The notes under the pieces: generated by a model
What the model saw: the letters and a program-made list of their open reading frames with translations, nothing else
What the model was told of the DNA's origin: nothing
Database searches by the model: none
Part shown: piece after piece, positions 15,647-51,657 of the stretch
Position numbering within the stretch: the stretch's first letter is position 1
Layout of the letters: each line of letters opens with the position of its first letter
Made by a program: the position numbers and the translations under genes
Assembly: GCF_964355755.1 (NCBI RefSeq)
Contig: NC_092680.1
Coordinates: forward strand, 9,587,001 to 9,651,000
Source: Antedon mediterranea
Lineage: Eukaryota; Echinodermata; Crinoidea; Comatulida; Antedonidae
DNA: 64,000 bases
Reading direction: 5' to 3'

Positions 15647-15872
15647 ATGAGTCTAACTAATGATCAGTCCTCACTATGGCCCGTAAATGTGGATCATCTT
15701 GACGACAATGACAAGATTGCCATTGTAGGCATTGGATGCAGATACGGCGACGATGTTGCAGGACCACGAGAAATGTGGAAGATTTTGATGGAGATGAACG
15801 GCTGTACAGCATCTCATTCTACTGAGCGATTTGACAAATCTAGTCTATTTTGCCATGGCAAAAAAGGAAAAG
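15647..15872 (+). CDS. PKS-like gene exon 1 (KS N-terminus)
   Basis: It encodes 75 codons plus one base. Residues 22-33 (DKIAIVGIGCRY) are the first beta strand of a ketosynthase, and ERFDKSS matches the usual W..L..G...ERF region. The donor AAAAG/GTAACT gives phase 1. The start is chosen because MSLTNDQSS leads straight into the domain; an upstream in-frame alternative was not seen. Confidence 0.8.
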
Positions 15873-18800: not shown

Positions 18801-21800
18801 GTTTCTACAGGTTGTTTTTTTTAATGTTCAGAGATTATGTTACCCAAAATCTTGAAAATCGGTCGGCGGTTTTTTTTTTTTTTTGGCATTTGAGGGACTT
18901 GTTTACTTTATAATTTTATTACATTCTTTGTTTTTTTTTAGCCTTTTTTGTTTTAAAAAGAGCCTTCTAAACTGTAATTTTATAAATTTTGGCTACGGAC
19001 AAACACATTTTAAAAATTGTGCCCTCTATTTAACATTATAAGTCAATGAATGTTAGGTCTAATGCATTCTCCCTAGTCACACGCGGACACTATTTTACCA
19101 AGTCTCCGGATCCGCTGCACTAGATTCGCCAACTGTTGACGTATAAAGCAAACCGTGTGTAGATTGTTCAGACACTATTGTATAAATAGTGTCCTCGTAG
19201 TCTTTAGTGGCTTCAAAAAAAATCCCGACGAACCGATCCAAATTTAAAAAACAGATATTCTGCTTGAGCAACATGACAATTTGTTTTAGGCCTAAAACAT
19301 AATTGCTGACATTTTATGAAAACAAATATAACACAATAACTTATTAATAACATCATTAACAACTGACATAAGTATTTCTCTTATCTATATCCATCTGACC
19401 ATCCATCGTTTATACACAGGCCTATTTATACAACATATGTGTTCCTATATACTGCAAAATCCTGATCAATTGCGGGCAGAATAAAGAACAGAAAAGATAA
19501 TAACCAATATTCATCTGACCCATGGACGTCTAATTATACGTCCATAATCTGACCATTTATCTTTCATACAACATATATTTTCCTATATACTGCAAAATCC
19601 TGATCGATTACGGGCAGAATAAAGGGCAGAATAAAGAATTATAATAACCAATAAAATAAAAACTAAACAATACTGGAAATAACAAAGAATATTATTTGAA
19701 ATTAACTCCTACTCTATGGAATAACCATACCTTTTTTGTCGTAATTGCCTTTAAATCGTTGCATGACGCTAATTAACATATTAATAATTATAATTTAATT
19801 AATTTCGTGTCAAAGATCAAAAGTAACACATATTTTCGATTACAGTAAATATAATGCACATGCTGAACAATTCTATTCTAATTACAATTCTCTACGACGA
19901 ATAGTTGCATAGCTAGGAGAACCCTATCTTAAAACCTAATTTGTATTGTTGGGGGTATGGCGGCCCTCATTTTTATCTTCTGTAAATTGGTCCACTCACC
20001 AAGTGCGAACATTTAAAAAGAAAAAACGATCATTTTAGGTTAATTTAAACATGGTAATTATATTATAATCAGGTCAAAGATCAAAAGTGATACTTCCGGT
20101 CATTTTTCGAGAAAAAATTCATTAGAGTAAATGATGGATTCTGAACAAATCCTCTCTGCTAGTTACATAGATCTGGCAACATAAAATGTAGTCATGTTGT
20201 TGGCCGCCATCTTGGGGCAAACATACAGATAGCCTTGATTTGATTTGATTATTTGGGTTAACGATGACCAATCCACTGAGCAAACCTTACCCGCCACTGA
20301 AAAAGGGGCCGTTTTGACCTGGTTTGCCATGTTTATGATATTTCATGTGCTAATCGAGTCGAATGCAGTTTTAATGATGCACTATTGGCGTTCCATATCT
20401 GTTCGTTTGTTCGTGTCGACACATTCAGTATCAAATGGCGATATTTCTGTATTTTTTTAATCAATTGCTTGCTTGCGAGTATTATATAAGGTATGGTTTA
20501 AAGATCTTTGGCTATGTTCGGCTTGGGATGTTATTTTTGTTTTATCTTTATACTGGGTGACCTCTTCAGTCAAAGACTGATCTCCCAGAGGGCCCAGTTG
20601 GTGATCAGTGGCTGTGATGTACTAATACACCGGGTAACCCCCTACTCGTCTCGAAAGATGTACTAGGTTCTTTAAAGTGCACACGAGCAAGTTGTGTACA
20701 CTGGACCTACGGTTTATAGTCCTTATCCGAGAAGACTCGTTCTACCACCAGAACCATGGAGTGAGTGAGTCTCGAACCCCTGCCGATGTTATGGCTACAT
20801 GGTTACGGTTCCACTGTCTTAACCGCTCGGCCACTCACTCACTTCATTGTGGTTTGTTTGTCACCACACTTAGGCCTAGGCTAGGCTAGGCTATATGGGT
20901 CGTCGGTTTCGTGTTATGGGTCGTCCAATTCTAGGTCGTCCAATTCGAGGTCGCCCGGGTCATTGGGGTCGTCCAATTCGAGGTCGTCGCTTTTTACGCT
21001 AGAGAGAGTAGTAGTAGAGTCAGTGGACGTATCGCAACAGATACATAGCCAGCCAAACTCGGATCAGGGATCGCAGTTTTCATTCAATTAGGCCCGGTGA
21101 TTGGATGTGATGTGATGACATAACCACTAGCCAATCACCAGGCACTACGATTTAAATATAATCACATCGATAATTCATAGTTCATAGTTCATGTTCTGGA
21201 GAAAATAAGACTGATAGAGGGCGCCAGATATGTGGTTGCCAGGAGGAATAGGTGATTTGTACTGATGTAATGTTTGAACACGTTCGAAGTTTATACGAAA
21301 TAAAGTGACAGTATCTGTGAAGTTCTTCCGTATTGAATTTAATTATATGATGGTATTTTGGTAGCAGAGCGAGGTTTGTAAAAAGAAAATATGGCCATGC
21401 CAATTAATACTTTGAGCAGGCAATTAGGCCAAAGATATCGATACATAAAAGACCTCGTAGAAGAGGCCCGGAGAGTACTCAACATAGACCTACCGCTAAG
21501 CCTAGGCCTAGGCCCAGCAGCGATAAAGAAAAGCACTTATGTTGAGATTGAAAAAATTACAAAGTTACAAAAACGCTGTTGGTGAAGAAGTTTGAAACAT
21601 ACACAGAAGTGAATAATAAATTACTAACTGAAGATCAAGAAAACGAAGAACAGTTACGTGAGTACGAAGAACAATATGATAGTATCGATAATATGATTGA
21701 TGAAACGGTCACAGCACTTGCGGCACGTGAGAAAACATTGCTTACTCTGACAACCGAGTCTAGGCCCTATACTAATACCTCCTAAAGAGTTTTAGGAGGT

Positions 21801-24800
21801 AACACACATGAGTCTGTAATCAAAGCTGAACAATATAAACTTGAAAACGAGATAGAAAAGCTAACATTAGAATTAGATGATGAGTTATCCCAACTGAATT
21901 ATATTACAGTACAGAAAAAACAACAAAAGGCCAACTCCAATACTATTAAGCCAACAGTATCACAAGCGTTAAATGATCATCTATCTCAAAACTGGACCAC
22001 ACCTATAACTCATCATCCGTCTACTACTACACAAAATATAAACCAAATACCACAATACATGCCAGTGCCGCCAATACATATAAGTACAACTACTAAGCAA
22101 AGGGCAAGTGGACTCGAAACAGACACGCATTTCTAATGTAACAATGGATCACACATGTTCCTGTTCAACTCTCAGGTGATGCATCACGACTGCTCACACG
22201 TGTAAAGGTACCACAGTTTGAAGGAGATAAAAGAAATTATGAATCTTGGAAATCCGCGTTTATGGCATGTGTTGACAATACAAACTCCACAGCAGAGTAT
22301 AAATTATTAAGACTAATAGGAGAAGCACTAAAGGTAATAGAAAGTTTAGGACATTCAGCCAGTGCATATACAGTCGCAAAAGAAAGATTGGAACGAAAAT
22401 ATGGTGGAAAAGAAAGACAAATTAGGCTGAGGTTAGAAGAACTTGATAATTTTAAACAAATACGTGAAGGTAATGGTAATGACCTAGAAGGGTTTGCAGA
22501 ACTTCTTGACGTCTTAGCAGTGAATCTGGAGGAGACAGCTGGACAGCTGGAAAGCTGTGCGCTGTATATCACATTACAAAAAAAGCTGACAAAACCATTA
22601 CTATCCAAGTTTCACCGTTGGGCGTTTGACAATGGATACACTCAAAACACAAACTCCATGAGAAAATTCATTAATCAAGAAGCAATGTTCTTAACTACTG
22701 CATGTGAGGCAGTTGATGGAATCGGAAAAGAAAACAAGAATATCAGAACATTTGTAACAGATACAGAAACCAGCAAAACCCAAAAGACTTGGCGAGACTG
22801 TGTAGTCTGTGGTGAAGGACATGCACTATATGCTTGTTACAAGTTTAAAAAATTGAACGTCGATCAACGATGGAGCAAGTGAAAGAAGCAAAGGCATTCT
22901 TCTGTTGTTTAGGGGGAGGACATTTTAGAGACGAGTGTAAACGAAGTAGAACATGTGGATTGAGAGGCTGTCGCCGAAAGCATCACCGTCTACTTCATGA
23001 TCCAGATTACAACAAAACCAAAACCGGACCTAATAACAACATAGATGCCAATAATGAACCTTTAGTCACTCAAACTCATAATAATAATAACACCGCAGTC
23101 AGTCAACATGGTCCATGTCCGGAAAATATGCAACCGAGTGCTAGCCCTGAAAATACGCTCCATAGTTTTGATCATGTAGATGAAAACCCAGCAACCATGA
23201 AAACGGGACATAGTAGTGAATCTGTAGCTCTTCGAACGATACCGGTATTTGTATGTAAAGGTCAGAAGAGAATTAAAATAAACGCTCTCCTTGATGAGGC
23301 AAACAGCAAGAGCTATTTAAATGCGGACATTGCAGCAGAATTAGGACTCGAAGGTCGCACGGAACGGGTGAGAGTTAATGTTTTAAATAGAGTACAAGAA
23401 ACACTGGAAAGTTCTTTAGTTGAGTTGGGAATCGGCAGTCTTGATGGTAAAATAATGAAACAGATATCAGCATATACAACAGAGAAAGTTACTGGAAATA
23501 TGCATGCAGTTGGACCATCAAAAAACAGCAATGGAGCAATCTGAAAAAATATTCCGTTCCCAAGAAGAGCAGAAAAAAAAAGTTCACGTTGACTTACTAA
23601 TAGGAGCTGACCAGGCCGAACTTATGTACTCAATACAAGACGTAAAAGGAAATCCAGGAGAACCGATAGCTAGGTTAAACCCACTTGGATGGACATGTAT
23701 CGGCAATCTGGGTAGTACACCAACAGAAATTCAAACAAACTTTACATTCGTCAGCAAGCCAAGTGACGAAATAACGAAGTTAATACATCAATACTGGGAT
23801 ATACCAAACATACCAGAAAATAGTCACACTATCAATCAAGACGAAAAAACAACCATGGAGAGGACTGAAAAATCACTGTCTTACCAAGATGGCAGATATA
23901 GCATAGTTATCCCATGGAAGAGTGAAATCAAAACTCAGCAAATTCCAGACACCTATCCCGTAGCAGAACAACGTCTTCGGAACACAGAAAAAAGGTTACT
24001 AAGATCACCCCTGCTGGCCAAATCATATGATGAAATAATTCAAAAACATCAGGAAAAGGGGTATATCCGTAAAGTGCCGCCAGAAGAAGAGAAAAAACCC
24101 AACAACGTATGGTATCTGCCTCACTTTCCCATTATACGTTCAGAGAAACAGACTACAAAGATCAGAATCGTATTCGACGCTGCAGCTCAAACTCCAGGTA
24201 AATGTTTGAATGACTACATCTTTACCGGCCCAAAACTCCAGAATGATTTGATAAATGTACTACTAAGATTCCGCCGGAATCCAGTAGCTATTATTCAATT
24301 CAATTCATCGACATTTTTATTCCATAATCAAAATAAAAACATATACAAATACAATACAAATAATAAGATAATGGAATGGGATACAAAATAAGCACAAGTG
24401 CTTTAAGCATGTAACCCTAACAAAAAGATCAAACAATTAGAACAAACAAAAAGAACAAACCAAAATAACATAATGTGATTTACTTAACTTAAATATTTCT
24501 ATTGTTATAATATTGCTTTAATCTCTGTTTAAACAAACTTAAAGTGGGGGATTGTTTTATATAGTCTGTTAAATTGTTCCAAATATGTGTTCCTTGGTAG
24601 GAAATACATTGCTGTCCGACTTTGGTGCGTTTTAGTTGTGGACAGTAGTTTGACCTGTTTCTAGTTGAGTAATTATGGAATGAGGCAGATGTACTAAATA
24701 AGTTATTAAATGATTCAGGTAATAGATTATGTTTATATTGATACATAAATATAGCAGTGTGTTTCGTATAAAGGTCAAAAATATTTAATGTTTGGGTTGA

Positions 24801-27800
24801 AATAAAAAGTGGATGAGAAGGATGCATAAAATGAACATGACAAATATTTCTAAGTGCTTTTTTCTGGAGAATATGTATACGGTTTAAGTTTGTAGCAGAA
24901 GTAGCACCCCATACTGTGATAGCATACGTTATTCTAGGTAATATAAGTGCATTGTATACCGTTAACAAGATTTTACTTGATAACATAGACTTCACTTTGT
25001 TTAAGACACCAATTATTCTAGAAATACTGTTTGCTACCTCATTTACATGAAAATTAAACGATAAAGTTTCATCCAGAAATAAGCCTAGAAATTTAACTTC
25101 AGTAGCTTTTACTATACATTCATTTCCCATCCTCAATTCTAGTGAGGTAGTGTCAGCTGACTTATTTCTAGCCTTAAATATAACATATTTTGATTTGTTT
25201 ACATTTAGCGTTAATTTGTTAGCAATAAACCAGTCCGAAAGTATAGATAACTCCTGGTTCATTGTATCAAAAGCTTGAGTAATATCATTGTGACTATAAA
25301 ACACATTTGTGTCATCTGCATACATAATCATGTCTACATGGTTACATGCTAGACTAATATCATTAATGAATATAAGAAATAATAATGGACCCAATATGGA
25401 TCCCTGAGAAACTCCAGTGTTTACTGTCATTTTACTAGATGCAGTATTAACAATAAATGTGTATTGTAGTCTTTTTTTAAGATAGTTTGAGAACCAGTTT
25501 AGCGGAACTCCTCTTATACCATAAAATCTTAACGTATCTAATAATATATCATGATCGATTGTATCAAACGCTTTTGATAAATCAAGGAAAACTCCTAGTG
25601 TGAACTCTTTATTCTCAATAGCGTTTGTGATTTTTTCAATCGATTGTATTAAAGCATGACTAGTTGAATGGTGTTGTCTAAATCCATACTGTGTTTTACT
25701 CAGTACGTTATATTTTGAGAGGTAACAAATCGTTTGATCATACACAATCCTCTCAAATATTTTGGAAAAAAAGGGTAAAATGGAAATAGGCCGATAATTA
25801 TTTATATCGGAGATGTCACCATTCTTAAATACCGGGATAACTTTAGCAATTTTTATATCAGCCGGGACACAGCCCGATGATAATGACGTATTAATAATAT
25901 GCAATAAAGGTTTTAAAATAAACGGGGAAGCAGATTTTATGAGTTGGGCACTTATACCATCATGGCCAGGAGAAGTATTCTTTGTGTTTTTAATATAGTG
26001 GTTAAGTTCATGTTCAGTAACAGGCTTAAAAAACATTGAAGAGGTAAAATTTCCCTTTAAGAAAGTTCTGTGGGTGATTTCTTCATTTTGAGATTCATGC
26101 CTAAATTTATTATTTAGTTTTTCTCCAATATTAATAAAAAAAGAGTTGAATGCATCAGCTTTCTCATCATTATCAGAGAAAGTCTCAGTACCCAATTTTA
26201 TTTTTCTAGGCAAATTGGTAGTCTTTTTCCTACCCATTATATCATTTAGGATTGTCCACGTTTTTTTAATATCTTGTTTATTTCGTTCAAACTGGACCAT
26301 ATAATATTCTTTTTTCCGATTTCTAATAGTAGTGGTTAACTTGTTTCTAAAATGTATGTACGTACTTTTATTAGTAGTGGTGTTATTTTGTTTGTACTTT
26401 TTATATAATTTATGTTTTTGAGAGATAGCTCTGGCAATTTCAGCTGTGATCCAAGGAGATTTTAACTTGTTCGCCTTATTTCTAATTCGTTTTAAAGGGA
26501 AACAATTATCAATTGTTTTATTTAAAGTGTTTGTAAAATTTTGATAAGCAACATTCGCATTATTTGAGAATAGCACATCATTCCACTGATTACTTTGTAA
26601 TTCTTGCAAAAAATACTCCGTTTGTTGAGGAGAGTATTGTCGTTTATATACAAATCGAGGATATTGCTTATTATGTTTTTCCAAAGTATCTACACAGAAT
26701 ATTGGGAAGTGATCAGAAATATCAGTAATAAGTATTCCACTTTTAAGGGACGTAGTAAAAGAATCGATGTTGCAATAAATGTTATCAATTATTGAAGCAC
26801 AATTATCGGATATTCTAGTAGGACTTTTTATGATTGGCTGAAATGACTGAGAAAATATTGTGTCTAAGTGTGATTGGATAGTGTTGTCGGTAGATTGTTG
26901 GAGTAAGTTTATGTTATAGTCTCCCACAAGGTAAGCTTTCTTTTTTTCTAGATTAATCATTTGCATTACACATGTTAATTCATCATCAAACTTTTGCAAG
27001 GAACGTGAGGGTGGTCTATAAACTATACCACAAATAACATTATTTCCTGATTCTAACTCAATCTCAATAAAAATAGTCTCTGCTTCAGTCATACAAGATG
27101 ACAGATCATTTCTAATAATATATGTTAGTTTGTTGGTAACATAGAACGCTACCCCACCACCTCTCTTATCTTTCCTATCATTGTGAATCAAACTGTAGCC
27201 TGGTAACTGGTATAGATTAATATTATCTTTTTCGGTTAACCAGGTTTCACTGAAGGCAATGACGGAGAAGGCATGTACGAGTGAGTCTAAATAGTTTGAG
27301 ATTAAGTCAAACTTATTAACAACACTACGACAGTTTAGTCCAAATATAGAAAAGTTTGATGATAAATTAGAATGTTCAAGTGAAGAAATTAAGTTATCTT
27401 CGTTAAAATATTCTGTGCTCACATTTACATTATCAAAAAGGTCACATTCAAACATTTAAATTAGACAGAAAAGGAAATGACAAATGAATAAAATTGAGCA
27501 AGCTGCTTACAGCAGAGAATAGTTAACACTATATAGCCTAAGTTAACAAGTATGTACAATAAATTACAATATATACAATGTAATATGAATTGTTTTATCA
27601 TGACATACCAACAACAACTAAACGACAGGCAGTGAAACAATAATGATGATCATGGACGCCAATTAAGTATTTGGTTAACTTAAAAGATTTTGATCAATCT
27701 AACTCACCGATGTCCAGAATGTATTATTATGGCAAGTTATCGTTACTCACTGGTAAGTCAAACATCGCCGGTAAACAGCTACGTTGAAACGGTCTAGAAC

Positions 27801-30800
27801 ATGATGTCTCAATAACGGCGCTCACTTATTAATCACATCAGCCACTTAATGTTGTTATAATTTGTCATTATACATCACTAGTAAAGTACGGATAGTATAA
27901 CTTAAATACATTTAGTTGTGTTGTGTTTCATTAAAACGATGTGTTTAACGTTTACGAGTTTGATCAACCCAGTAACTCATCGATGAATTACCGGTAAACA
28001 ACTACGTTGAAACTTACATCGTCAACAGCCACTTAATTGTTGTTGGTATTTCTCATTATGTAACACTATCGTCGCACACCTGCCGTGGGTCACATGAATT
28101 AAAGTTTGAATGGACAGAGATATCCAGAACATAACACTAACAGCCAGGTGCGCGACATAAACAAACAAACTTCGTTTATTTACAATTTATAACGGTAGAA
28201 ATACTACTACAATCACATAATTAGTCTACGTTCTACAAGACAATGATAGACTCTGCGGTAATGTAGGTATGAAATATAATTCATAAACATTAATTAATTG
28301 TGTTCAATTGAACATTAATTAATTTGGCTTAATGACTTAATTATAGTTATTTTAGTGGCTTGTATGGCTTACCGTCGATAAACAGTTGTCCATTTCTGAA
28401 TACGGGCTTACGTTTTTTGGCATATGCCTGCGCCATAATTGTAGATAATTCTCTCTTTTTCTTCATGTCCGCGTCAGGTAAATCTTCAGTAATAAATACG
28501 TTTTGTGATTTACTTTTTAATTTTACTTTTCCTAGTTTTAGGACTTGGTTTCTTTGTGGACGGTACAGAAATTTAGCTATTATATGCCTCGGTTTGTTAT
28601 CTAAACGGCGTTTCCCGGTGCGATGGCAATTTTCATTTTTATTATGTGTGAAATAACTGAAATGTACCTACAAATTCAACTTTCTACTGAAGACCGACCA
28701 TATCATCGCTTTTTGTGGAGAGAGAATGACACAGCTCGAATTCCAGATGTATATGAGTTTCAACGAGTAGTGTTTGGAGTCAATTCATCCCCATTTATGG
28801 CACAGTATGTAGTAAAAAGACATGCCCAGCGGTTTGTAACGAATTCCCGCTTGCAGCGCAAACAGTGCTCAAGAGTACATACATGGATGGCAGCATGGAT
28901 TCTACAACAAATGTAGAGACAGGAATACAACTTTATAAAGAATTATCACAGCTGTGGAAACGAGCTGGAGCGCATGCCAGAAAGTGGATATCAAACAAGA
29001 TTGAGCTACTTGAAACAATTCCACAAGATGATTGTCCTACCGAAGTTGACTTAGATAAAGGGGATCTTCCTCAGGTGAAAACTCTAGGCATTCAATTGTC
29101 ACCTAAGGAAGATTATTTTACATTCAAAGTAAATACATCAGTAGTTGAAGGAATTACGTGGACAAAAAGAGGATTGCATCATTGTTTGATCCTCTTGGAC
29201 TACTTGCACCGAACCTCATTATAGCAAAGACTTTACTTCAAGAAATATGGATAAAGGGGTATGAATGGGACGACCCCCTGTATTTAAACATTGCCAACAA
29301 AGCAGATCAGTGGTTTAAGAACCTCCAACAGCTACAAGATTTGCAAATTCCACGTTGTGTACGCTATGATCAACAAACAAAGGATGAGCAACTCCATACA
29401 TTTTGTGATGCATCTGAGAAGGCGTACGGAGCATGTGCCTACTTACTCTATACGTACATGGATGGAAGTTGTTCATTTGTTCTTGTTGCATCAAAACCTC
29501 CAGTAGCATCACTAAAAGTACTAAGCATCCCAAGACTAGAGCTGATAGCAGCAGTTGAAGGACTTCAACTAGCACAGAAGATTGGTGAAGCCCTACAAAT
29601 TGATCAACAGCAGTGGACCATGTGGTCTGATAGTAGGGACACATTGTATTGGATTAGGGGTATGAGCAGGAGGTTTAAGCCTTTTGTTGCCAATCGAGTA
29701 GGGTTAATCCAAGAAAGAACTGATCCGGCACAGTTGACATATGTACCGACAAAAGAAAATCCAGCAGACTTGCTCACAAGAGGTATACAGGTATCAGATT
29801 TAGCCCAAGAAACTAAGTGGTGGAATGGACCAAACTTTCTGTTACAAGAAAATTCAGAGTGGCCAAAATGCAAAATATACGCAAACGTAGAGAACAATTG
29901 CGAAATGAAAACTTCATTTAATGAGAAAAATCAAGAGAAATTTTTTGTTGTTGATAATCAATTTGCAAATAGTCGACTGGAACCTACGCGATATTCGTGT
30001 TGGATTAGATTGAGCAGAGTCTATGCAACCGTTATTCGAATTTTCTACAAAACTGTAAATTACCTGTTATATATCGCCAGACGGGACCCCTAACTTCGGA
30101 GGAAATTGTAGAAGCCCAATGCAGACTAGTCAGGAAAGCTCAAAGTGAGACATTTGGAGATGAAATAAAAGCTCTAAAATACAAAAAACAAATTCTCCAT
30201 GGATCCAAGTTAAATCCAATGATTGATTCAGATGGCGTATTAAGGTGTAATGGCCGGCTCCGATACAGTGAATGTATTGCCTGGGAAACTAGATACCCTA
30301 TTATCTTACCGAAGATCATCATATCAGTCAACTTATAATAAAAGATGCACATGAACAAGCATTACATTCGGGGAAAAATTATAATTCTATCCCAACTGTC
30401 AAGGAAATACTGGATTATATCGGCTCGAGAAGCAATCAGAAGCTGGGAGAAAGAATGTTATGAATGCAAAAAGAGAAACGCGAGACCAATGCAGCCAAAG
30501 ATGGCACCACTTCCGAAGTATCGATTAGGCACATCTCTCCGTGATTTTACCAACATCTCAGTTGATTTTGGTGGACCATTCATCACAATACAGGGACGAG
30601 GAAGGGCAAGAGTGAAAAGATACTTGTGCTTGTTTACAAGCCTAGAGGTACGTGCAGTACATCTAGAAGTAGCTTGGAGCCTGGACACAGATTTATTTCT
30701 CAATGAATTTTTTTTAATGGCGTCAAGAAGAGGTATGCCTTAGAGCGTTCTATCAGATAACGGAACCAACTTCGTGGGAGGAAATAATGAACTAAAAAGC

Positions 30801-33800
30801 TGAGAAACTTGGCTAATCATATAATCACCGACAAAACAGCAGCCCATGGAGTAAAATGGAGGTTCAATCTACCAGGAGCACCCCCATTTTAGTGGAGTGC
30901 ATGAAGTTATGATAAAAGCAGCTAAGCGGGCGATAAAAGTGATATTAGGAAACGCTGACATCACTGATGAAGAGTTAATCAGCGCCGAAATTGGAGCGGA
31001 AGGACTGATAACCTCAAGACCTCTAACATACCAATCGGCAAGTTTGCACCCGAAGCTGTAGATCGAACAGACCAGTTTGCGTTAGGCCTACATTACGGAT
31101 TTCTATAGATTTAGAAGTTGTTGGGAATAATTTTTTGTTTTTAATTGAGTTTGACATCAGTCTGTCAAGAAGGGGGAGGATGTTCTGGAGATAATAAGAA
31201 TGATAGAGGGAGCCAGATATGTGGTTGCCAGGAGGAATAGGAGGTGATTTGTACTGATGTAATGTTTGAACACGTTCAAAGTTTATACGAAATAAAGTGA
31301 CAGCCTTACTCGCAACCTTACGAATACGATAACGAAAACGGATACGTCATACATGTGTGGAACTTTTGAGCTGATCCCCATTTCATATTCGTAAAGCATA
31401 TTCGTGTTGACGAATATCACCAGTCATATTCGTAACTACAAAACGAGTATAGTTTTTGATCTATTTTGCACATTTTGCATTTGAATTAGGAATGATTCAT
31501 GATTATAATATAATTATAGATTTATTGAAAGTAATTTACTAAAGTAATTTACTAAAATGCCAGGTCAATTTAGATAAATATATAGCAGTTTTTAAAGTCC
31601 TCACTCGCTTCGATGTTACGCTAGGCCTAGGCAGCCAAGCACCAAGCACCACGTACCTGCGCTTCGCTCAAATTTACCGCAGTCATATTTTGGACACGCC
31701 TCGATATTTCGTTGCCATGCGAAACAGATTTTTTTATGGCTTACGAAAACGAATACGTGTGCGTGACGTATCCGTTTTCGTTATCGTATTCGTAAGATTG
31801 CGAAACCTCTCTAGTATCTGTGAAATTCTTCCGTATTGAATTTAATTATATGATGGTTGAGACTTCTCCATAACAGTTCATTTTATTTGTTCATACGGAA
31901 ATTCATGTGACATAGGCCTACAATTGCTCAAAATTAAAAGGTTAATACGTGAAAATTACATAGCAACAAAATTCAACGACTTAACAACGGTTATTAAAAT
32001 GTCTAATTGAGTACAGAATAAAAGAATTAAGAAAGCGTTTTGTTCTACAACGTGTAGCCCTCAAACGCCTTCCAGATCTCAACCATTGAAAATCATTATA
32101 GAGCGGATAACTATTTGTCTTTCATTATGGCAATGACCTTATCATAGATTTTGACATTACAAACATCATCAAATCTAATGATCTGTTTAGTTATTCTGCA
32201 CGCCTTATTTACTAAACACTGAACATTCTTTAGGTCTGATTTTCTAAAACTACGGAACCATGTCAGACAAACATAAACTAATTAGACACTTTCCATTACC
32301 GACTTATAAAATATACCTAATATTGTGTTAACATTAAACGAGTTTAATTTTCTTAAAAATTACAATCTAGAGTTACCCTTAGACATGATCGTTTTACAAT
32401 GTTCATCCCAATTAAGCTTGTTACCATTAAGAAGGAGATTTATGAAGAAACCACTTCGTAGCCATATATTAAAAACAAGTTTGTTGTACTTGAGTACACA
32501 GGACACGGTAACAACATACATGATCAAATAGATTAACGCAATTTTTTATTGTAGCAGGTGGGAGGCCAATATGATAATTAAAATATAAAAATTACATATT
32601 TTATTTATATTACCAACTACTTAAAATAACCGGTCGTAAGAAAGTGAACTTTTCGTAGTCCGATTGTGATGAAATTAAAACAGAATTGTTCAGCAATATA
32701 TTGTTATTGTCACCGTCGATGCATATCCTTCTATTCCCTTATCCATGACAGGACACACTTAATACTTTCGTAGAGAGAAATCAGGTAATGACATGAAATG
32801 CCCCAGATATGTATATTGTAGCATACATTTTGACACGGAACGCCTTAGAATGGTTTCAAGAGGGTTGGAAACGCTGAAAAACATACGAAACAGTATATAT
32901 CTGAACTAAAATGTGAATTTTAGTATTTTATTTAAAGTAAAGTATTCGGCATGTCTTCGGAATCAACATCTTCGGAAGCATTGGGATGTTCGGAATTATC
33001 ACCCCAAAAAAGTTCAAAATTATTTAGAGGGTTAGTTTTTAGGACGAGATTTTTTACTTATGTTTTTATCAAGACAAGTTCATAGTTGATAAAACTAAGC
33101 CGTCAGACAGATAGATGCACTATTAGACTAAATAACGATGCCACATACATGACCAATGTGAGTACAGACACTATCCCAACATTCACTTCCAACATCAAAA
33201 TCAGTAGGTACCTCTCACCACCAGAATCCTTCATTAACATCAGCACAGGAGGAACATAACACAATATTATGTGCAACATCAAAACAGCTCAAGACATGTA
33301 AACCAGTACATTGAAATCCCTTCACCAGGCAATGCCTTCAACAAGCACTGCATATTAGCCAAAGTAATTGTACCTGGTCATTTTGCTAAGACCTTCATCT
33401 TTTAATTATTGTGCATGCCGCACAACATCAGACTGACAAGACGCAACACATATCATTTATCTCTAGTTCCGAAAAACTCTGGATAATTCGGTTTTTCCTT
33501 GAGTTTCCAATTAAGATATATATTGTGATATTTACAGATGTGGTTCAATACATTGAGTACTTTAATGGGTAGTTAGCCTAAGATTTAGTTGTCATAGAAT
33601 CACAATGGTTGGTCTGAGCATTATTGTTCATTGCACTACTTAACTATTGAAATGTATTGTTGTTCTAGGTGGAGTTCAACACATTGATACACAAATGAGA
33701 AATGTTCTTGAGGTTGTATTGGAATCGATTGAAGATGCTGGTATTCCTGCATCGAAACTGCGTGGCTCCAACACTGGTGTGTATATTGGGGTGACGGAAA

Positions 33801-36663
33801 ATGAATATTATACGTTGGCTGGGTTACCTTTTATCAGTCAATACACATATTCAGGAACTAACTCGTACATGATCTCTAACAGAGTTTCGGGTGAGTTTGA
33901 TTTCAGAGGACCACGTTTTCCAACCGACACCGCCAGTTCGTCGTCATTATATGCTGTACAAATTGCTTGTGATGCTCTAAGAAAAGGGGATTGTGACACA
34001 GCAATTGCCGGAGACGTAAATAACAATCATAATCCTACAGTTACACTTGGTTTCTCTCAAACTGAATTGCTTTCTCCTGAGTCGACAGTGGACGAAAACA
34101 GCCGAAGTGAAGGTATAATAATTCTTAAGTCACTAAGCCAAGCAAAAGCAGACAAAGATCGTATTTATGCAGTGATTCAAGGCGATGCTATTACAAATTA
34201 TGATGGAGCACCAGTTATTGCAAATCATAGCCATGATGCCCAAATTGATCTCGCACATAACATAAATAAAGCGGTAAAAGTTGACTTCAGTAATATCGCA
34301 TGTGTCACTGAAACTAAACTAGGAGACAAGACTGAAGAAAATGCCATTGTCAAATCCATGGGTAAGCAAAGTTCAGAAGTCGAAGGCGTTGCTGGAATAG
34401 GAGGAGTTATCATGGTAGCATTGTTATTACATCATCGAGAAATTCATTGCATTGTGCAATTCAAACATAATCCAAATATACAATTTCAAGATTTGAAACT
34501 GAGAGTTCCGGCAACTAACATCCCTTGGTCGGTTGCTTCGACGCTCTTTGTAGGCTGTAGCTCATTTGAAGCCAATGGTGCTAACACACTTGTGTTTGAA
34601 ACTGCGCCTGTGCCTAAAGTACAGTACGTTCATCAAATTGAACCATTGTCGTTTGAATCATATAACATGTTGATGATCTCGGCTCATTCACTAGAAACTC
34701 TTCGTCAAAGATGTATCGACTGGAAAGACTTCTTATCAAATTTAACAGGATTGGAGTCTTTTAAAAATATGTTATACACAGCAAATTTGAGAATTACTAT
34801 TCACAAAGAGAGAGCAGTTTTTGTAGCAAAGTCAAGTTATGAGTTTGTGAACTTATTGCAAAAGAAATTAGTCGGAGAAAGCTCAGATGCTATAATTGAA
34901 GGCAAAGCAAAAGATGACAAGTCTGTTAACCGAACAGTTTTTGTTTTCTCTGGCAGTGGTACTCAGTGGTGGGGCATGGCGAGAGAATTAATCAATACAC
35001 AACCTATATTCAAAAAAGTCATAAAGGTAATTAGTTTTCAGATATTACTGGAATATACAAAACCTAGAGGTTGGTGGTTGAAATCATATATTCAAAATTA
35101 TAATTATTTATCACGGATACAATGATTAAAACAATTACCAATAATTTGTTTTTACCTACTTCAATAAGATAATAATATAATTATTTTATAGAAGATAGAT
35201 GGTTTTTTAGAAAAGACTGGTGGAAAATGGTCGCTTATTGAAATGTTAACAGTAGAAACTGATAAAAACAGAATCAAAGGTGATACAGGTAAACATTTTT
35301 GTTATTCTATAATATACCCCTAAGTAGACTCTTGTCATTTGAGTGATTTGCTTTAGATTAGTGTATATTAGTTTGAATAATTAATGGGAACAAGACGTGG
35401 AATTTGTTTATGGCTGCCTATGAATATTTTGATCTGTTGTTGACACAATTCATAGTTTTTTTTTATATACCTATGTAGGGTGCATGTCATATTATTTCCA
35501 CTCTGCTTCGCCTCGTTTTAAATAATATTATTAAAAAGATCATTTCTGAATGATTTTAATCTATCTATTTAGTGTCTAGTATAATCAAGCTTATAATTAT
35601 AACGTTATACATTTTATATATAACAATTAGAAAAACATACTGTACTAAACTTATGCAACCGATTAATAAATGTGTATTTTACCTTAATATATAATTATAT
35701 TTTAATTGTTAATTGCTTTAAACAGAAATTTCACAAGTCTGCATTTGTAGCGTTCAGATTGGATTAGTTGAACTTTACAAACATTATGGAGTAAGGCCGA
35801 GTGCCATCATCGGTCAGAGTGTAGGTGAGGTGGCAGCAGCCTACGCAGCTGGACTTTTCACTATGGAAACAGCAGTCAAACTAATATTTAAACGAGGAAA
35901 TATCCTAAGTAAAATAAGTGGCTCAGGAACGATGATGGCAGTTCTTCATGACGTGGAAGTTGTCAAAAGAAAGCTAGACTGTACTCCAATAGAGATAGAC
36001 ATAGGGGCAATAAACAGCCCTAAGCAGATTGTATTGTCTGGGAAAACAGAGTTACTTATTGAATTTTCATCCAAATTAAAAAAAGAGGGCATATTGACAA
36101 AATTACTAAATGTTAATAGTCCATTTCACAGTCGTCATCAAGACGATTTGAAGGAAGAATTTCTTAGAAATACTAGTTTCCTTAATCAGAAGCAAACATA
36201 TTCAACTAACGAAACATCTGTTATTCCAATGATGTCAACTGTAACAAACCGTTATATTACCCTACAAGAAGCACATGACCCTGCTTACTGGTGGAGTAAT
36301 ATTCGCCAGATGGTGCGTTTAAAAGACGCAATAGATGTCGTACTCAATAGCGGTTGCAATGGTTTTTTAGAAATAGGAGCTCATCCAACGTTGTCACCAG
36401 TTATTAAAGAAACTATAGCTTCGAAATCGATCAAACCAACGATTTACTTTATCACTCATTCTCTTAAAACACCACGTGATGTAAGTAACACTGCCAATGA
36501 TAATCTAAATTTCATCACATCGTTAGCACAGATGTTTGCAGAAGGTTACCCTGTTGATATGACACCGCGCTTTGAAGAGTTTAATTGCATGGTGGAGTCA
36601 TTGCCATTGTATCCATGGCAACATATACGGAGTCCAGCAGCAACTAAAAATAAGGGACCATGA
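15647..36663 (+). CDS. KS-AT polyketide synthase-like protein with inactive KS (4 exons, 872 aa)
   Basis: Exons 15647-15872, 33669-35026, 35192-35288 and 35726-36663 have GT...AG borders and matching phases (1, 0, 1), giving 2619 nt and one open frame. The KS spans about residues 22-395, a linker and docking part follow, and the AT spans about residues 497-850. In animal type I PKS the KS condenses acyl chains through Cys-His-His. Here the Cys of DTACSSS is Ser165 (codon AGT at 33935), the HGTG of EAHGTGT is deleted between Glu290 and Thr291, and the NIGH His is absent around residues 307-318. The AT keeps GQS592VGE, His695 (PFHSRH) and Arg617. The protein ends just after PLYPWQ, with no DH, ER, KR or ACP. 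It is either an acyltransferase or scaffold paralogue, or a recently dying gene. The open frame across four exons argues for recent or continuing constraint. Confidence 0.8.
15908..16510. other. Intron 1 sequence without recognised elements
   Basis: This is noncoding sequence. I looked for an extra KS exon with an FFGIS-type motif and saw none. Confidence 0.5.
16511..16539. repeat. (AAT)n microsatellite
   Basis: About ten AAT/TAA units are followed by TTTATTTCGGAACC. In minus-strand sense this looks like the tail of a retroposon covering part of 16540-16870, but no protein supports it. Confidence 0.7.
16880..17325 (+). pseudogene. LINE 3' fragment
   Basis: The + strand reads FRSYCINMYCSPLWSS, then (other frame) KVCYNDAFRRLFGQPRFVSA, then PSFYEYLRISTYRFLTSIM. 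This is the C-terminal end of a non-LTR reverse transcriptase protein with one or two frameshifts. The tail AAAAGTTGAATTGAATTGAATA at 17300-17325 has the same GAATT-type 3' end as the LINE at 24296-28634. Confidence 0.75.
19390..19650 (+). repeat. Imperfect tandem duplication, about 120 bp unit
   Basis: CATCTGACCAT..., TATATACTGCAAAATCCTGA and CGGGCAGAATAAAG occur twice in order (19391-19500 and 19547-19635). It is noncoding. Confidence 0.7.
20550..20862 (-). mobile_element. tRNA-derived SINE, copy 2
   Basis: It is the reverse-strand relative of the SINE at 13395-13700. It keeps a cleaner B box (GGGGTTCGAGACTC, minus strand, about 20766-20779) and the A box TGGCCGAGCGGTTAAGAC (about 20816-20833). 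It interrupts the right arm of the long inverted repeat, so it inserted after that repeat formed. Confidence 0.85.
21192..21354 (+). repeat. 5' LTR of the BEL/Pao element
   Basis: About 163 bp, similar to 31181-31303 plus 31813-31855. The downstream leader TGGTAGCAGAGCGAGG starts with TGG and may be the primer-binding site. Confidence 0.75.
21391..22140 (+). pseudogene. BEL/Pao gag N-terminal region, frameshifted
   Basis: Three overlapping frames read in order: MAMPINTLSRQLGQRYRYIK; KKFETYTEVNNKLLTEDQEN; and KLENEIEKLTLELDDELSQL. They are Glu/Lys-rich and look like coiled coil, as in BEL/Pao gag N-termini. Frame changes near 21580 and 21785 break the protein. Confidence 0.6.
22195..23544 (+). 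pseudogene. BEL/Pao gag core, zinc knuckles and protease
   Basis: VPQFEGDKRNYESWKSAF opens a DUF1759-type gag core (ORF 22262-22882), which runs to the zinc-knuckle-like CVVCGEGHALYAC. The next frame (22870-23544) continues with CCLGGGHFRDECKRSRTCG and a His/Cys cluster, a spacer rich in Asn/His, and the aspartic protease (DUF1758-like) with INALLDEANSKSYLNADIA. One frameshift at about 22870-22880 separates the two ORFs, and another lies near 23520. Confidence 0.75.
23504..24295 (+). pseudogene. BEL/Pao reverse transcriptase, N-terminal part
   Basis: It reads HVDLLIGADQAELMYSIQDV, GEPIARLNPLGWTCIGNLG and RIVFDAAAQTPGKCLNDYI, ending in RFRRNPVAI where the LINE is inserted. These are standard BEL/Pao words for the protease-RT linker and RT motifs 1-3. 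The continuation is at 28635. Confidence 0.85.
24489..27455 (-). CDS. LINE ORF2: APE endonuclease-reverse transcriptase (988 aa)
   Basis: The N-terminal apurinic-type endonuclease (about residues 38-250) shows FGLNCRSVVNKFD, FSETWLTE, GGGVAFYV, YLVGDYNIN and TDISDHFPIF. The reverse transcriptase (about 500-770) shows [55 protein letters not shown] and the catalytic MYADDTN. The C-terminal region has TYAITVWGAT and QKKALRNICHV. All catalytic boxes are present and there is no stop, so this could be an active or very recently active copy. It nicks target DNA and copies its RNA into the genome. The start at 27455 is the first Met of the open frame. Confidence 0.9.
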   Translation of the reverse strand: MFECDLFDNVNVSTEYFNEDNLISSLEHSNLSSNFSIFGLNCRSVVNKFDLISNYLDSLVHAFSVIAFSETWLTEKDNINLYQLPGYSLIHNDRKDKRGGGVAFYVTNKLTYIIRNDLSSCMTEAETIFIEIELESGNNVICGIVYRPPSRSLQKFDDELTCVMQMINLEKKKAYLVGDYNINLLQQSTDNTIQSHLDTIFSQSFQPIIKSPTRISDNCASIIDNIYCNIDSFTTSLKSGILITDISDHFPIFCVDTLEKHNKQYPRFVYKRQYSPQQTEYFLQELQSNQWNDVLFSNNANVAYQNFTNTLNKTIDNCFPLKRIRNKANKLKSPWITAEIARAISQKHKLYKKYKQNNTTTNKSTYIHFRNKLTTTIRNRKKEYYMVQFERNKQDIKKTWTILNDIMGRKKTTNLPRKIKLGTETFSDNDEKADAFNSFFINIGEKLNNKFRHESQNEEITHRTFLKGNFTSSMFFKPVTEHELNHYIKNTKNTSPGHDGISAQLIKSASPFILKPLLHIINTSLSSGCVPADIKIAKVIPVFKNGDISDINNYRPISILPFFSKIFERIVYDQTICYLSKYNVLSKTQYGFRQHHSTSHALIQSIEKITNAIENKEFTLGVFLDLSKAFDTIDHDILLDTLRFYGIRGVPLNWFSNYLKKRLQYTFIVNTASSKMTVNTGVSQGSILGPLLFLIFINDISLACNHVDMIMYADDTNVFYSHNDITQAFDTMNQELSILSDWFIANKLTLNVNKSKYVIFKARNKSADTTSLELRMGNECIVKATEVKFLGLFLDETLSFNFHVNEVANSISRIIGVLNKVKSMLSSKILLTVYNALILPRITYAITVWGATSATNLNRIHILQKKALRNICHVHFMHPSHPLFISTQTLNIFDLYTKHTAIFMYQYKHNLLPESFNNLFSTSASFHNYSTRNRSNYCPQLKRTKVGQQCISYQGTHIWNNLTDYIKQSPTLSLFKQRLKQYYNNRNI
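27456..28346 (-). other. Inter-ORF region of the LINE with internal duplication
   Basis: Noncoding sequence separates ORF1 and ORF2. It contains an imperfect duplication (about 27690-27880 and 27955-28075) sharing GCCACTTAA, GGTAAACA(G/A)CTACGTTGA and TCATTAT words. It may carry a promoter or ribosome-entry function for ORF2; that is speculation. Confidence 0.5.
28347..28634 (-). pseudogene. LINE ORF1 C-terminal remnant
   Basis: The minus frame reads ENCHRTGKRRLDNKPRHIIA, KFLYRPQRNQVL, VFITEDLPDADMKKKRELST and NGQLFIDGKPYKPLK, then a stop at 28347-28349. This is the C-terminal domain of an L1-type ORF1 RNA-binding protein (RPR.I..KF, then EDLP...KKR). The N-terminal two thirds are lost through 5' truncation. 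Confidence 0.75.
28635..31075 (+). pseudogene. BEL/Pao RT C-terminus, RNase H and integrase, broken
   Basis: It starts with MCEITEMYLQIQLSTEDRPY and FGVNSSPFMAQYVVK. The catalytic box reads TYMDGSMDS where YMDDSMDS is usual, so the second Asp is changed to Gly. RNase H follows (LHTFCDASEKAYGACAY, IPRLELIAAVEGL, WSDSRDTLYW, ENPADLLTRG). The integrase region has CYECKKRNARPMQPKMAPLP and ISVDFGGPF, VRAVHLEVAWSLDTD, a stop, LSDNGTNFVGG, and after frameshifts FNLPGAPP. Frame breaks lie near 28855, 29160, 30090, 30330, 30742 and 30880. Confidence 0.85.
31181..31855 (+). repeat. 3' LTR of the BEL/Pao element, split by a MITE
   Basis: 31181-31303 and 31813-31855 together match 21192-21354 with few changes and one 3-bp insertion (GGAGGTGATT versus GGTGATT). 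The break falls after AAAGTGACAG. Confidence 0.85.
31304..31812. mobile_element. MITE with perfect 33-bp inverted repeats
   Basis: 31317-31349 (starts CTTACGAATACGATAACG) is the exact reverse complement of 31764-31796. The outer 13-15 bases match less well. The element is about 509 bp, has no ORF, and carries extra ATTCGTAA words inside. Only AG is clearly duplicated at the insertion point, so the superfamily is undecided. Confidence 0.85.
31900..32545 (-). pseudogene. LINE C-terminal fragment
   Basis: The minus strand reads WFRSFRKSDLKNVQCLVNKA, CRITKQIIRFDDV, then after stops WLRSGRRLRA-like words. This is the C-terminal end of a LINE family common in marine animals. Upstream on the same strand (32320-32540) NKLNWDEHCKTIMS-like words continue it. 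It is heavily decayed. Confidence 0.65.
32546..33640. other. Intron 1 sequence, nothing recognised
   Basis: No exon with KS homology and no transposon protein was seen. It was checked for the missing KS segment without success. Confidence 0.5.
33669..35026 (+). CDS. PKS-like gene exon 2 (most of KS, linker, AT start)
   Basis: The acceptor TTGTTGTTCTAG precedes GTGGAGTTC, and the donor ATAAAG/GTAATT ends the exon. The exon runs from HIDTQMRNVLEVVLESIEDA (KS core) to FVFSGSGTQWWGMAREL (AT start). About 30 residues that normally join ERFD to FFGISPxEAExxDPQ are missing between exons 1 and 2. The KS glycine-rich C-terminal motif reads SSFEANGANTLVFE where NAH is usual. The AT N-terminal motif is GSGTQ where GQGTQ is usual. 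Confidence 0.9.
35192..35288 (+). CDS. PKS-like gene exon 3
   Basis: The exon is 97 bp between TTTTATAG and GTAAAC. It encodes KIDGFLEKTGGKWSLIEMLT followed by VETDKNRIKGDT, the AT helical segment normally reading like 'TGWSLLEELL...SRINET'. Phases 0 and 1 join its neighbours without a break. Confidence 0.85.
35726..36663 (+). CDS. PKS-like gene exon 4 (AT catalytic core and stop)
   Basis: The acceptor is TTTAAACAG. It encodes the AT nucleophile motif GQSVGEVAAAYAAG (Ser592; His of the common GHS is Gln591), the carboxylate-binding Arg617 in FKRGNIL, the catalytic His695 in NSPFHSRHQD, and EIGAHPTLSPVI near the end. The frame stops at TGA 36661-36663 after PLYPWQHIRSP. No further PKS exon was recognised downstream. 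Confidence 0.9.
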
Positions 36664-40689: not shown

Positions 40690-42882
40690 TTTTCTTTTAC
40701 GTTTTAGCCCATTTTTGTTCAGCTTTGATAAAGTTACATGCGTGTTCATATTTTATTAAATTGGAAATTTCCGTTTTGTATACATTCCATATTGTTTGTG
40801 AAATATTTTCTTCTTTTAATAAATTATTATAGGTAAAACCTGACTTATAAATACAAAAACAGAAAATAGAAATAAGTTCATTTATGAGTTTGCTGTTAGT
40901 ATTCCCTGTAACAATGTTTATCCAACTGGAAAATTGATGGCGTGTTTCGTTGGCAGGGAAACACGTTACAATCATTAAATCAAACTTTCTCCAGAATGAT
41001 TGAATTGTTTTACAAAGAAATATCATATGTTTTTTATTTTCTATTTCAGTTTTACATTTTTTGCATAGGTCAGTTTCCACTAACTTCCATAATTTAAGCT
41101 TTGCACTACATGCTAAAATTCTGTGCAACAGTTTGAAATTCAATTGGCAAACTTTAACTATATGTTTAGAGCTAACAACTTTATTAAACCATATTTTATG
41201 CCAATTTAACTCAACACCTAATTCAAATTCCCACTTTGCTTGAGATATTGGAATGGATGCTTTGTTATTAACAATGTGTCTATGAAATATTGAAGATTTG
41301 TTTTCCTTATAAAATAAACTTATAATCTACATATTTATCATTTACATTTTCAACAATTGGTGATGTTACTATTTGTTTCCATTTATTTGGTATAGCATTG
41401 ATAATTGAGAAATATTCTATGAAACCATTTTCTTTATGAATCAACTTGGGAAGCAACTCTTGGTATGTTATTACTGTAGTTCATTATTAATAATGATATC
41501 ATTTATTTTCGGAATCCCGAATTTAACCAATTGCTAAGGTACATTGAATTACCTTGCAGAGTTATATATTTATTTTCCCACAGCTGTTGAGATTTGATTT
41601 CATTTGCAGTTAGTGGTTCTGAACTTATAATATTGTTTAGAATCACAGCCGCATTTAATAATTGTAGATAAAATATTGGCATGTCTTTTTAAAATTGTAT
41701 GGTTTTCTTTATTCATTTTAGTAATTTTAACTGTACATTCAAATGGATACATATAGTATTTCAGAATGAATTTCCATTTCCCAGGGTCAGGGCTTAATAG
41801 CCTCTTGATCCAACTCAGTTTTAAAGACTTAACTAAAACATTAAAATCTACCATGTTGAGACCACCGTCTTCAATTTTATTGATAAGTGTTTTTCTTTTA
41901 ATTTTTTCCTTTTTTCTTCCCCATAGGAAATGAAAAATTTATTTTTCAACTAGAGGAAAAATATGTGTAGGTACATCTATAATACTGGCGTTGTATATAA
42001 GTTTGGATATAGCCAGTGTTTTAATAATTGTTATTTTCCCAAGAAAGGATAAATATCTTTTTTCCCATAATTTTAATGTATTTTTTAAGTTAATAATTTT
42101 GTCATCCCAATTTTTTTTTCACATGAATTGGTATTATAGCCAACATATATTCCAAGAAAGTTTATTGGTTCCTTCGTCCATGAAATATTGAACGGAGTGG
42201 AGTTACTAAATCTACTTGAACCAATCCAAATGCCTTTTGTTTTTTTATTCAATTTTAGACCTGATATGTTATAAAACGTCTGTATTTCATTAAAAAAAAT
42301 TTCTAAACTGCGTCCTTCACTTGTGAAAATTACAGTATCATCTGCCAATTGTGCAATTTTTACTATATTATCATTGTTTTCTGTGCTTGGTAGTTTAATA
42401 CCTTTGCAGTGTCGATTTTCTCGTATGTTAATTGCCATGATTTCGGCAACTAAAATAAATAACAAAGCGGACAATGGACAGCCCTGTCTTACTCCACAGT
42501 TCATTTTAAAAAGTTTTGGATATCCAACCATTATTAGTTATTTTACACATTGTATCCGTGTAAATTATTTGTATCCATTTTATGAACGATTTACCAAATC
42601 TAAATTTTTCCAGAACTTTGAACATTAGGTTTCTGTCTATTGAATCAAAGGCTTTGGCGAAGTCAAGGAATATCATCGCACCTGGTATATTTTATCTATT
42701 GTATAAGTTAATAAATCTTCCACTAATCTTATATTTTCTGGTCCAAATCTTCCTTTTATATAACCCTTTTGATCGAAATTTATTATTGATCCAATAATTT
42801 CATGCATTCGGTTAGTTAGGGCATGTGCCATAATGGTTGTGATAACTTTGTCGATTTTTGAAACAAAATTTGGACAAAAACA
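40690..42882 (-). pseudogene. L1/Tx1-like LINE fragment (RT and zinc-binding C-terminus)
   Basis: From right to left on the minus strand: NFVSKIDKVITTIMAHALTN and FDQKGYIKGRFGPENIRLVE (RT N-terminal motifs, 42700-42890), then CGVRQGCPLSALLFILVAEI, IAQLADDTVIFTSEGRS (42085-42531, catalytic LADD box) and NFLGIYVGY, then KLLHRILACSAKLKLWKL with CKKCKTEIENKKHMIFLCKT (40697-41143, the zf-RVT zinc-binding end). The wording is L1/Tx1-type, unlike the CR1/L2-type LINEs elsewhere here. Frameshifts and stops between pieces make it a dead 5'-truncated copy. Confidence 0.85.
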
Positions 42883-43698
42883 TGTTAACCTTGACTTTGT
42901 TGATGTTACCCCTGGTCAATGATTACAGGGATGTTTTCCGTCGTTGAGAGATCTAAGAATAGTAATACACAATAAATGATGACAAGGATTTTATAGATGT
43001 TCTACTCATATGTGGCAAATCTTTAATGACCTCTTATCATCAAACATAGTAAGCTTAAAACTATAGTACATCTGCTAGGCCTACTGTATTTCATAACTCT
43101 AAAAATACTAACAATGAAGCATTGTCTCTCAACTAAGGTCGTGTTAAATAAGTAATAAACCTGTAACACTTCTTCACCTTCCTATTATACCAAGGTGAAC
43201 ATCAATATCAATAATACATGACTTGTACTTGTGTCTAGGGTCTGTTTCTGCTGCATAACGCAATTTAACCGGTTATTTTAAAATAGATTAAAAATAGATA
43301 ACAATAACAAGACCGCGTTTCTGCTCAATTTGTGCTCCGAAATAACCGGTTAAATCTATGGGTGGTCGTCGAGCAAAACGTCATCATTACCCAAAATGCA
43401 ATACACTCAGACGGAAGTAGTAAGTTGGCTGTTTGTTTACATCGACGTCGTCAGTACACACGTGTGTATATCGCCGAACATCTCAAACATGTTAAAATAA
43501 TAAAATGTTGTCTACAGGTCTACAAGTTTTGTTTTTTGTAAAGCCTACTTACTGATCGCTAATAAAATTAATTCTCATGGCGCCTTCAATAACATGGGGA
43601 GGGTCGCCTAAGATAATTTTTATCTAGCCTAAAATTCCTCAACAAAGGCGATGATGATACGGCCCTTCCCACGTGAACGACTGTTGTCTTGCGAGCGC

Positions 43699-50800: not shown

Positions 50801-51103
50801 GTTTCTATCATTTCTAATAGGTTCTTGATAACCGTCTAGTAAAATGTCATGGTTCAAGATAGTTTGATCTAGCCATGTTTCTGTTAAAGCAATAATATCA
50901 TAGTTATTTAAATTTGCTAGGTGTTGAATTTCAGCTAGTTTACCTGGAACGATTAGACTACGTATGTTAATATGGCAAACTGTAAACTGTTCCGGACCAG
51001 GATTTGGATGTATATCGCCGCACATTAAAAGCATGCACATTAGAATACTTAATTTGATAGCAACATTATTACGCCCCAAATTTATGATAAATAAATTATC
51101 CAT
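47811..51103 (-). pseudogene. LINE endonuclease-reverse transcriptase with one frameshift
   Basis: Frame 1 (49022-51103, 693 aa) starts with a hydrophobic stretch and CGDIHPNPGP (residues about 28-37), a 2A-like motif with His where Glu is usual. The endonuclease has NIRSLIVPGKLAE, ALTETWLDQ, GGGCALYISN, LMMGDMNAQNN and CDHSPVYANI. The RT has IENYRPISILSNFANIFER, SVFLDISKAFDKVWHNG and AGVPQGSVLGP. Frame 2 (47811-49091) resumes with SILFIVFINDMVDN, LYADDTSLYD (catalytic), RPLMEYAAPVWC and a C-terminal C-x-C...H...C knuckle (NCTCGFNVENPLHFLCYC). Loss of one base in the codons for GPIL near 49052 explains the break. APE-type, jockey/CR1 superfamily. Confidence 0.9.
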
Positions 51104-51189
51104 TATCAGTAAAAAAAATAAGTAAAGTACTCACTTTAAAAACGCTAGCACATATAAGAACACTTAGCCAAACGAACATTGATTATACT

Positions 51190-51657
51190 TAAAAGTAATT
51201 GGGTAGAGGATGAAGACAGGTCTACTGATGTTATCAAATACATGTTAGACATAAGAGAAAAAATGGAGAAATTAATGAAAGATGCTAATGTAAACAAACT
51301 TGAACAAGAAATTATGTCCCACAATTATAACAAGAATGCTATTCATATAGAATTTGTAGAAGGGGACAAAGTGTTGATATTCCTTGCAGTAGGAAATAGT
51401 AAATTAGACAGTAAGTGGCAAGGCCTCTTCACTGTGACTAAAAAGGTCAATGAGGTAAATTATGAAATATACATAGGAGGTAGAAGAAAAGAAAAACAAA
51501 TTCTACATGTTAATATGTTAAAGAGATGGTATGATAAAGTAGAAATAAGTAAAGATGGTTATTATGTAGTGACAAATGTCCAGTCGATAGAAGAAGTAGA
51601 CTTAAATGAAACAGTCCGTGACAATAATGAAAACATTTCTTCTGGTTTCGATTCGTA
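51190..51657 (+). pseudogene. Gmr1-like integrase C-terminus
   Basis: It reads NWVEDEDRSTDVIKYMLDIR, EFVEGDKVLIFLAVGNSKLD, KWQGLFTVTKKVNEVNYEI and ILHVNMLKRWYDKVEIS. This matches the C-terminal module of Ty3 integrases, with WQGLF where W.GPF/Y is usual. The acidic linker VDLNETVRDNNENISS follows and is then cut by the Penelope-like palindrome at 51658. Confidence 0.8.

Follow-up and report, generated by a model that had tools for sequence, protein, structure and literature searches.

A Ketosynthase-Dead Polyketide Synthase Gene in the Crinoid Antedon mediterranea That May Persist as a Stand-Alone Acyltransferase

If the ketosynthase (KS) of a polyketide synthase (PKS) has been destroyed, is the gene that encodes it simply a relic, or can a part of it still be maintained and, if so, which part? 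The question is raised by a gene on the plus strand of the 64,000-nucleotide stretch of Antedon mediterranea DNA analysed here (G000:C11:9587001-9651000, referred to below as the window; the source assembly comprises 354 Mb in 18 contigs). A first-pass annotation had described a four-exon frame open for 872 codons, with a KS deprived of all three residues of its catalytic Cys-His-His triad. Such a frame is indeed found. Namely, four exons join into an open frame of 872 amino acids in the order KS, KS-AT linker domain (LD), acyltransferase (AT), with GT/AG borders at all three introns, and a Pfam search of the protein returns the KS N-terminal domain and the acyltransferase.

Exon 1 (15647-15872) carries the start ATG and the N-terminus of the KS, IAIVGIGCRYGD, and is matched by the exon at C1:30650114-30650339 of a second copy, the twin, which is discussed below. 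What would be intron 1 (15873-33668, plus strand) is 17.8 kb long, versus 9.7 kb in the twin, and contains an open reverse-transcriptase frame of LINE type and broken pieces of a Pao retrotransposon. In particular, a LINE-like 988-residue stop-to-stop frame on the minus strand (24489-27455) is open and matches reverse transcriptase and endonuclease, while the Pao pieces (29149-30740) lie in separate frames and match Peptidase_A17 and, below its cut-off, an integrase zinc-binding domain. Further long open frames are located at 5650-6758, 22142-24391, 40697-42915, 47811-52365 and 54736-55272, and Rfam, searched over the whole window at gathering scores, gives no match. Two copies of a repeat at 57947-58663, approximately 93-96% alike, are found in L014, and one further, inverted copy is found in L018 around the C1 twin. 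Returning to the gene itself, exon 2 (33669-35026) begins with the vestigial part of the KS (33669-34609, up to residue 389) and continues with the LD (34610-34936, residues 390-498), for which the Pfam matches in this exon, CurL-like_PKS_C and KAsynt_C_assoc, both stay below cut-off. It ends with the start of the AT (34937-35026; FVFSGSGTQWWGMA), including Gln508, the PF00698 match running from residue 499. Exon 3 (35192-35288, 97 nt) belongs to the AT and is present, at 94 or 97 nt, in all six intact multi-exon paralogues as well as in the twin. Finally, exon 4 (35726-36663) encodes the AT core with Ser592 (GQSVGE), Arg617 and His695 (PFHS), followed by the post-AT motif YPWQ and the stop. 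All of these exons lie on the plus strand.

The state of the KS was read from an alignment of the window copy, the twin and the six intact multi-exon paralogues, and this alignment bears out the loss of the entire triad. The active-site motif reads DTASSSS, versus DTACSSS in the intact paralogues, with the AGT codon of Ser165 at 33935-33937. A 16-residue deletion takes out KSNVGH and, with it, the histidine that had been reported as gone from KSNIGH, while the NAH motif, likewise reported as altered, reads NT-L. One earlier statement has to be corrected, however: a four-residue gap had been held to remove HGTG, but this motif was converted to CVTE by substitution, and the gap sits just before CVTE (the numbering of Glu290 and Thr291 is the same on re-check). 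In the twin, the corresponding stretch reads YIETCVTETKLGD, ungapped against the Y(I/V)EAHGTGT of all six aligned intact paralogues, and a private 12-bp deletion in the window copy takes out YIET beside CVTE. Because the twin is ungapped, HGTG must have been substituted before the twins split, and YIET lost later in the window copy. The KS also bears a 7-residue deletion in its CKSFD loop, which the first-pass annotation had not listed, as well as four minor deletions, each one or two residues long, and approximately 30 KS residues that the intact paralogues possess are absent at the end of exon 1. Of three intact paralogues aligned there, two have the GT of the putative exon 1 donor inside their coding sequence (GGTAAA). 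Since its catalytic motifs have been lost, the KS is predicted to be unable to condense.

In exon 2 of the window gene, the Ketoacyl-synt_C domain of Pfam was not detected at E-values up to 0.001; the corresponding exon of an intact paralogue gives it a score of 128 bits. Among the matches listed, DH and KR occur at eight other loci and nowhere near the window gene or its twin. What is more, the intact DH-KR-ACP tail, used as a query, gives no convincing match beyond the AT, either in the window or within 2.6 kb after the stop of the twin, which ends like the window gene, with NKGP and a stop after the AT. A displaced C-terminal tail was rejected, as this query matched the end of the AT only, plus a single site in the window at an E-value of 0.71. 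The possibility that the missing exons lie elsewhere in the window was likewise set aside, since the missing part of exon 1, the CKSFD loop and the KSNVGH stretch gave no E-value below 0.38 over the window and the C1 pieces.

Could these lesions be errors? The twin, on another chromosome (C1:30.65-30.67 Mb), encodes 874 amino acids in the same four exons and shares the lesions, while the introns of the two copies diverge by 8-14% and their insertions differ. For this reason, the lesions are due neither to chance nor to sequencing error, as had been maintained for the KS from the start, and an assembly artefact is excluded as well. It also follows from the diverged introns and different insertions that the death of the KS and the loss of the tail precede the separation of the copies. 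Neither of the two contains a stop or a frameshift, and one Trp of YWW is lost in the twin. The duplication behind the twins is not that of the intact pair at C11:9.52 and C1:30.47 Mb; the intact pair is more diverged (dS of 0.14-0.21, versus 0.065-0.09 for the twins, with intron 2 differing by 25%).

A KS search of the genome gave at least 22 matches. Strong, stop-free KS exons were found at no fewer than eight loci (two on C4, one on C11 at 9.52 Mb, one on C5 and four on C1), with the Cys-His-His motifs intact at these eight; the degenerate KS loci among the matches listed are those of the window and of C1:30.65-30.67 Mb, and the other matches represent either first exons or weaker loci apart from these. 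In a tree from which the C4 pair was left out, the two degenerate copies cluster with the intact copy at C1:30.55 Mb; ultrafast bootstrap support reaches 100% with the whole alignment as well as with its KS part, and 96% with LD+AT. This tree, the shared exon 3 and the exon borders establish descent from a PKS gene. As a separate observation, an intact neighbour (G000:C11:9515500-9525499) has Gln in place of the malonate-binding Arg (FKQGHL) with GHSVGE intact, and this Arg is kept in the five other intact multi-exon copies and in both degenerate ones; to judge by this residue, the neighbour may differ from the other copies in its choice of extender.

Which part of the gene, then, is still maintained? 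Over the KS part of exon 2 (to residue 404), the twins differ by 19 synonymous and 46 nonsynonymous changes (dN/dS of 0.70), versus 18 synonymous and 14 nonsynonymous ones over LD+AT (dN/dS of 0.20). For KS residues 76-389 the ratio is 0.75 and for exon 1 it is 0.76, and only the KS part and exon 1 reach values of 0.7 or more between the twins. In residues 390-484 of the LD there are seven synonymous differences and not a single nonsynonymous one. The first part of the AT (residues 485-710) has a ratio of 0.18. Residues 711-872, which close the protein, are looser than the rest of the AT, with a ratio of 0.50 and 11 nonsynonymous and 6 synonymous differences. In the intact pair C11:9.52/C1:30.47 Mb, on the other hand, it is the KS that is the tighter part (0.127, versus 0.283 for LD+AT). 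By Fisher's test, KS and LD+AT differ in the twins (p=0.014) and, in the opposite direction, in the intact pair (p=0.010); the KS of the twins differs from that of the intact pair (p=2.7e-5), whereas their LD+AT parts do not differ (p=0.43). We also fitted a branch codon model by means of a purpose-written codon-likelihood script, applied to eight sequences from one genome with a distant outgroup, without exon 1 and with KS and LD+AT split at residue 405. For the KS, omega is 0.10 on the intact background, 0.50 on the shared stem and 0.69 at the tips (tips versus 1, p=0.20). For LD+AT, the corresponding values are 0.175, 0.34 and 0.21, both tips (p=1.8e-5) and stem (p=7.9e-5) being distinguishable from 1, and the stem value exceeds the background (three ratios versus one, p=0.02).

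The reading frame tells its own story. A neutral frame would be expected to have accumulated 6-10 stops across the two copies; none is observed, with a probability of at most 0.002, although for the KS part alone their absence is just mildly improbable under neutrality (P of 0.02-0.09). The introns of the twins contain approximately 8 internal indels in 744 aligned bp, few of them multiples of three, and at this rate about 13 indels would be expected over the KS part and about 16 over LD+AT. Between the two coding sequences there are three indels, of 12, 3 and 3 nt, each with a length divisible by three. The same is true of all nine internal KS gaps that both copies share relative to the intact C1:30.55 Mb copy (3, 6, 21, 6, 48, 3, 3, 3 and 9 nt, of which the last two fall at the KS/LD border). 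Thus, the KS is kept readable as a frame and not in its residues, and the LD-AT behind it is kept. In other words, between the twins the KS is evolving near neutrality, and LD+AT is under purifying selection. It had been proposed at the outset that dN/dS near 1 together with stops would reduce the gene to a plain pseudogene: the first half of this holds for the residues of the KS part only, and no stops were found. Over the whole frame there are neither stops, nor frameshifts, nor an omega near 1. That said, partial gene conversion between the copies is possible, since the dS of LD+AT (0.065) is lower than the intron divergence (approximately 0.1).

As for the ACYLTRANSFERASE itself, the catalytic Ser and His together with the Arg and Gln are kept in both copies (Ser592, His695, Arg617 and Gln508 in the window), and Ser, His and Arg are invariant in seven of seven bacterial ATs aligned with it. 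An AlphaFold2 model of 297 residues of exon 4 with the same seven bacterial ATs, which covers the exon 4 part of the AT (its start lies on exons 2 and 3), has a mean pLDDT of 82.8 and a pTM of 0.85, and Foldseek matches this model to PKS acyltransferases in the PDB (best 6j0u, E 1.4e-20). Residues, model and PDB matches together point to an AT fold that retains its catalytic Ser and His. The malonate-binding Arg and the Phe of xFHS are present in both copies (Arg617, PFHS), and the GHSxGE motif is not: both degenerate copies read GQSVGE (Gln591), versus GHSVGE in all six intact multi-exon paralogues. A second unusual change turns SGMGTQ into SGSGTQ (Met to Ser). According to PMC11775670, the His before the catalytic Ser is strictly conserved in ATs, with no role assigned to it, and is not kept in acyl hydrolases, in which the malonate-binding Arg is mostly Gln. 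On the strength of Arg617 and the FHS Phe, both retained, we take the AT to be of malonyl type; it looks malonyl-type by these two residues and hydrolase-like only by the lost His.

Taken as a whole, these results incline us, with modest confidence, to the view that selection maintains the gene as a stand-alone LD-acyltransferase with a vestigial KS, derived from a full-length animal type I PKS. The first-pass annotation had suggested that either the fold or the AT was kept for another role, and it is the AT half of this suggestion that is favoured, with LD+AT constrained and the KS not. Against it speak the retroelement-bearing 17.8-kb intron 1 and the putative exon 1 donor, the GHS His to Gln and SGMGTQ Met to Ser replacements, the raised LD+AT omega on the stem, the looser residues 711-872, the Trp of YWW lost in the twin and the possible partial gene conversion. 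Several of these points would be equally at home if both copies were early pseudogenes, whose AT seems conserved because selection on it has only recently ceased or owing to conversion between the copies. The decay of the KS with the loss of its exon 1 residues, the retroelements in intron 1, the dN/dS over residues 711-872, the missing GHS His and an LD+AT dS below the intron divergence all fit such a reading. We nevertheless consider it unlikely: the tips of LD+AT have an omega well below 1, neither copy has acquired a stop or a frameshift, and conversion lowers dN and dS alike, with introns 2 and 3 still approximately 9-12% different.

Two functional alternatives differ in what they ask of the protein. 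Type I PKSs are KS dimers, and a non-catalytic remnant of the KS could pair with the KS of an intact PKS and lower or redirect its activity, in keeping with an open KS frame and with intact paralogues on the same contigs. However, the KS residues evolve near neutrality, some 30 of them are missing from exon 1 and Ketoacyl-synt_C is no longer detected, all of which makes such a partner highly improbable. The lost His, in turn, would suit an AT that has become an acyl hydrolase clearing stalled ACPs, after the manner of the discrete acyl hydrolases known from bacterial trans-AT PKSs, which do not keep this His where the window gene has Gln591. Yet the malonate-binding Arg, mostly Gln in those enzymes (PMC11775670), is kept here as Arg617, and a hydrolase is in our estimate quite improbable.

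On the favoured reading of a stand-alone LD-acyltransferase, the history of the gene would be as follows. A full-length animal type I PKS (KS-AT-DH-KR-ACP) would have given rise to an ancestor of both copies already without the KS end of exon 1, the catalytic triad and every domain after the AT, and copies of this ancestor would now lie on contigs C11 and C1. After their separation, the KS would have drifted almost neutrally, held to an open frame only because the LD-AT is translated behind it, and LD and AT would have stayed under purifying selection. The gene would be transcribed, with exon 1 spliced at an exapted GT, and the AT would still form the acyl-Ser enzyme and, in trans, load or edit ACPs belonging to FAS or to the intact PKS loci. 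The AT is probably a transferase of malonyl type, to judge from its residues, and one that works in trans, and action on the carriers of other PKSs or of FAS would be its likeliest role.

How does such a gene compare with known systems? The characterised animal type I iterative PKSs include SpPks1 and CrPKS of echinoderms (PMC11414698). The window gene resembles this class, represented here by the six intact multi-exon paralogues, in exon structure, KS-LD-AT order and descent. Unlike them, it combines its AT with neither the Cys-His-His triad (Ser165, CVTE, KSNVGH deleted) nor DH, KR or ACP in one protein of 872 amino acids. With the discrete ATs of bacterial trans-AT PKSs (PMC11775670), it shares the lack of an ACP of its own, the Ser-His pair and the FHS; unlike them, it has a decayed KS and GQS for GHS and is an animal nuclear gene, its action in trans being putative. 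It also resembles the trans-AT acyl hydrolases such as PksD (PMC11775670) in being a stand-alone AT fold without the GHS His, but not in its Arg617, the residue that is mostly Gln in those enzymes. The pseudo-methyltransferase of animal FAS is likewise a dead catalytic domain in an open frame; that domain is structurally important according to PMC10764717, whereas the KS of the window gene drifts. Among the titles and abstract openings listed, mostly from outside subscription journals, we recognised no animal PKS with a dead KS or reduced to an AT.

In general terms, a multi-step megasynthase may here have been whittled down to a single-step enzyme. It is a tentative idea, and a rather doubtful one at present, that a stand-alone, trans-acting PKS AT arose in an animal by erosion of a cis-AT PKS, in which case the gene would be an intermediate between cis- and trans-AT organization, caught with its KS in mid-erosion. 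The gene displays, one domain at a time, what a megasynthase drops and what it retains, and the intact relatives within this genome serve as controls. If its AT does work in trans, Antedon mediterranea would be an animal with a discrete AT as in the bacterial trans-AT systems, and one in which the origin of that AT can still be read.
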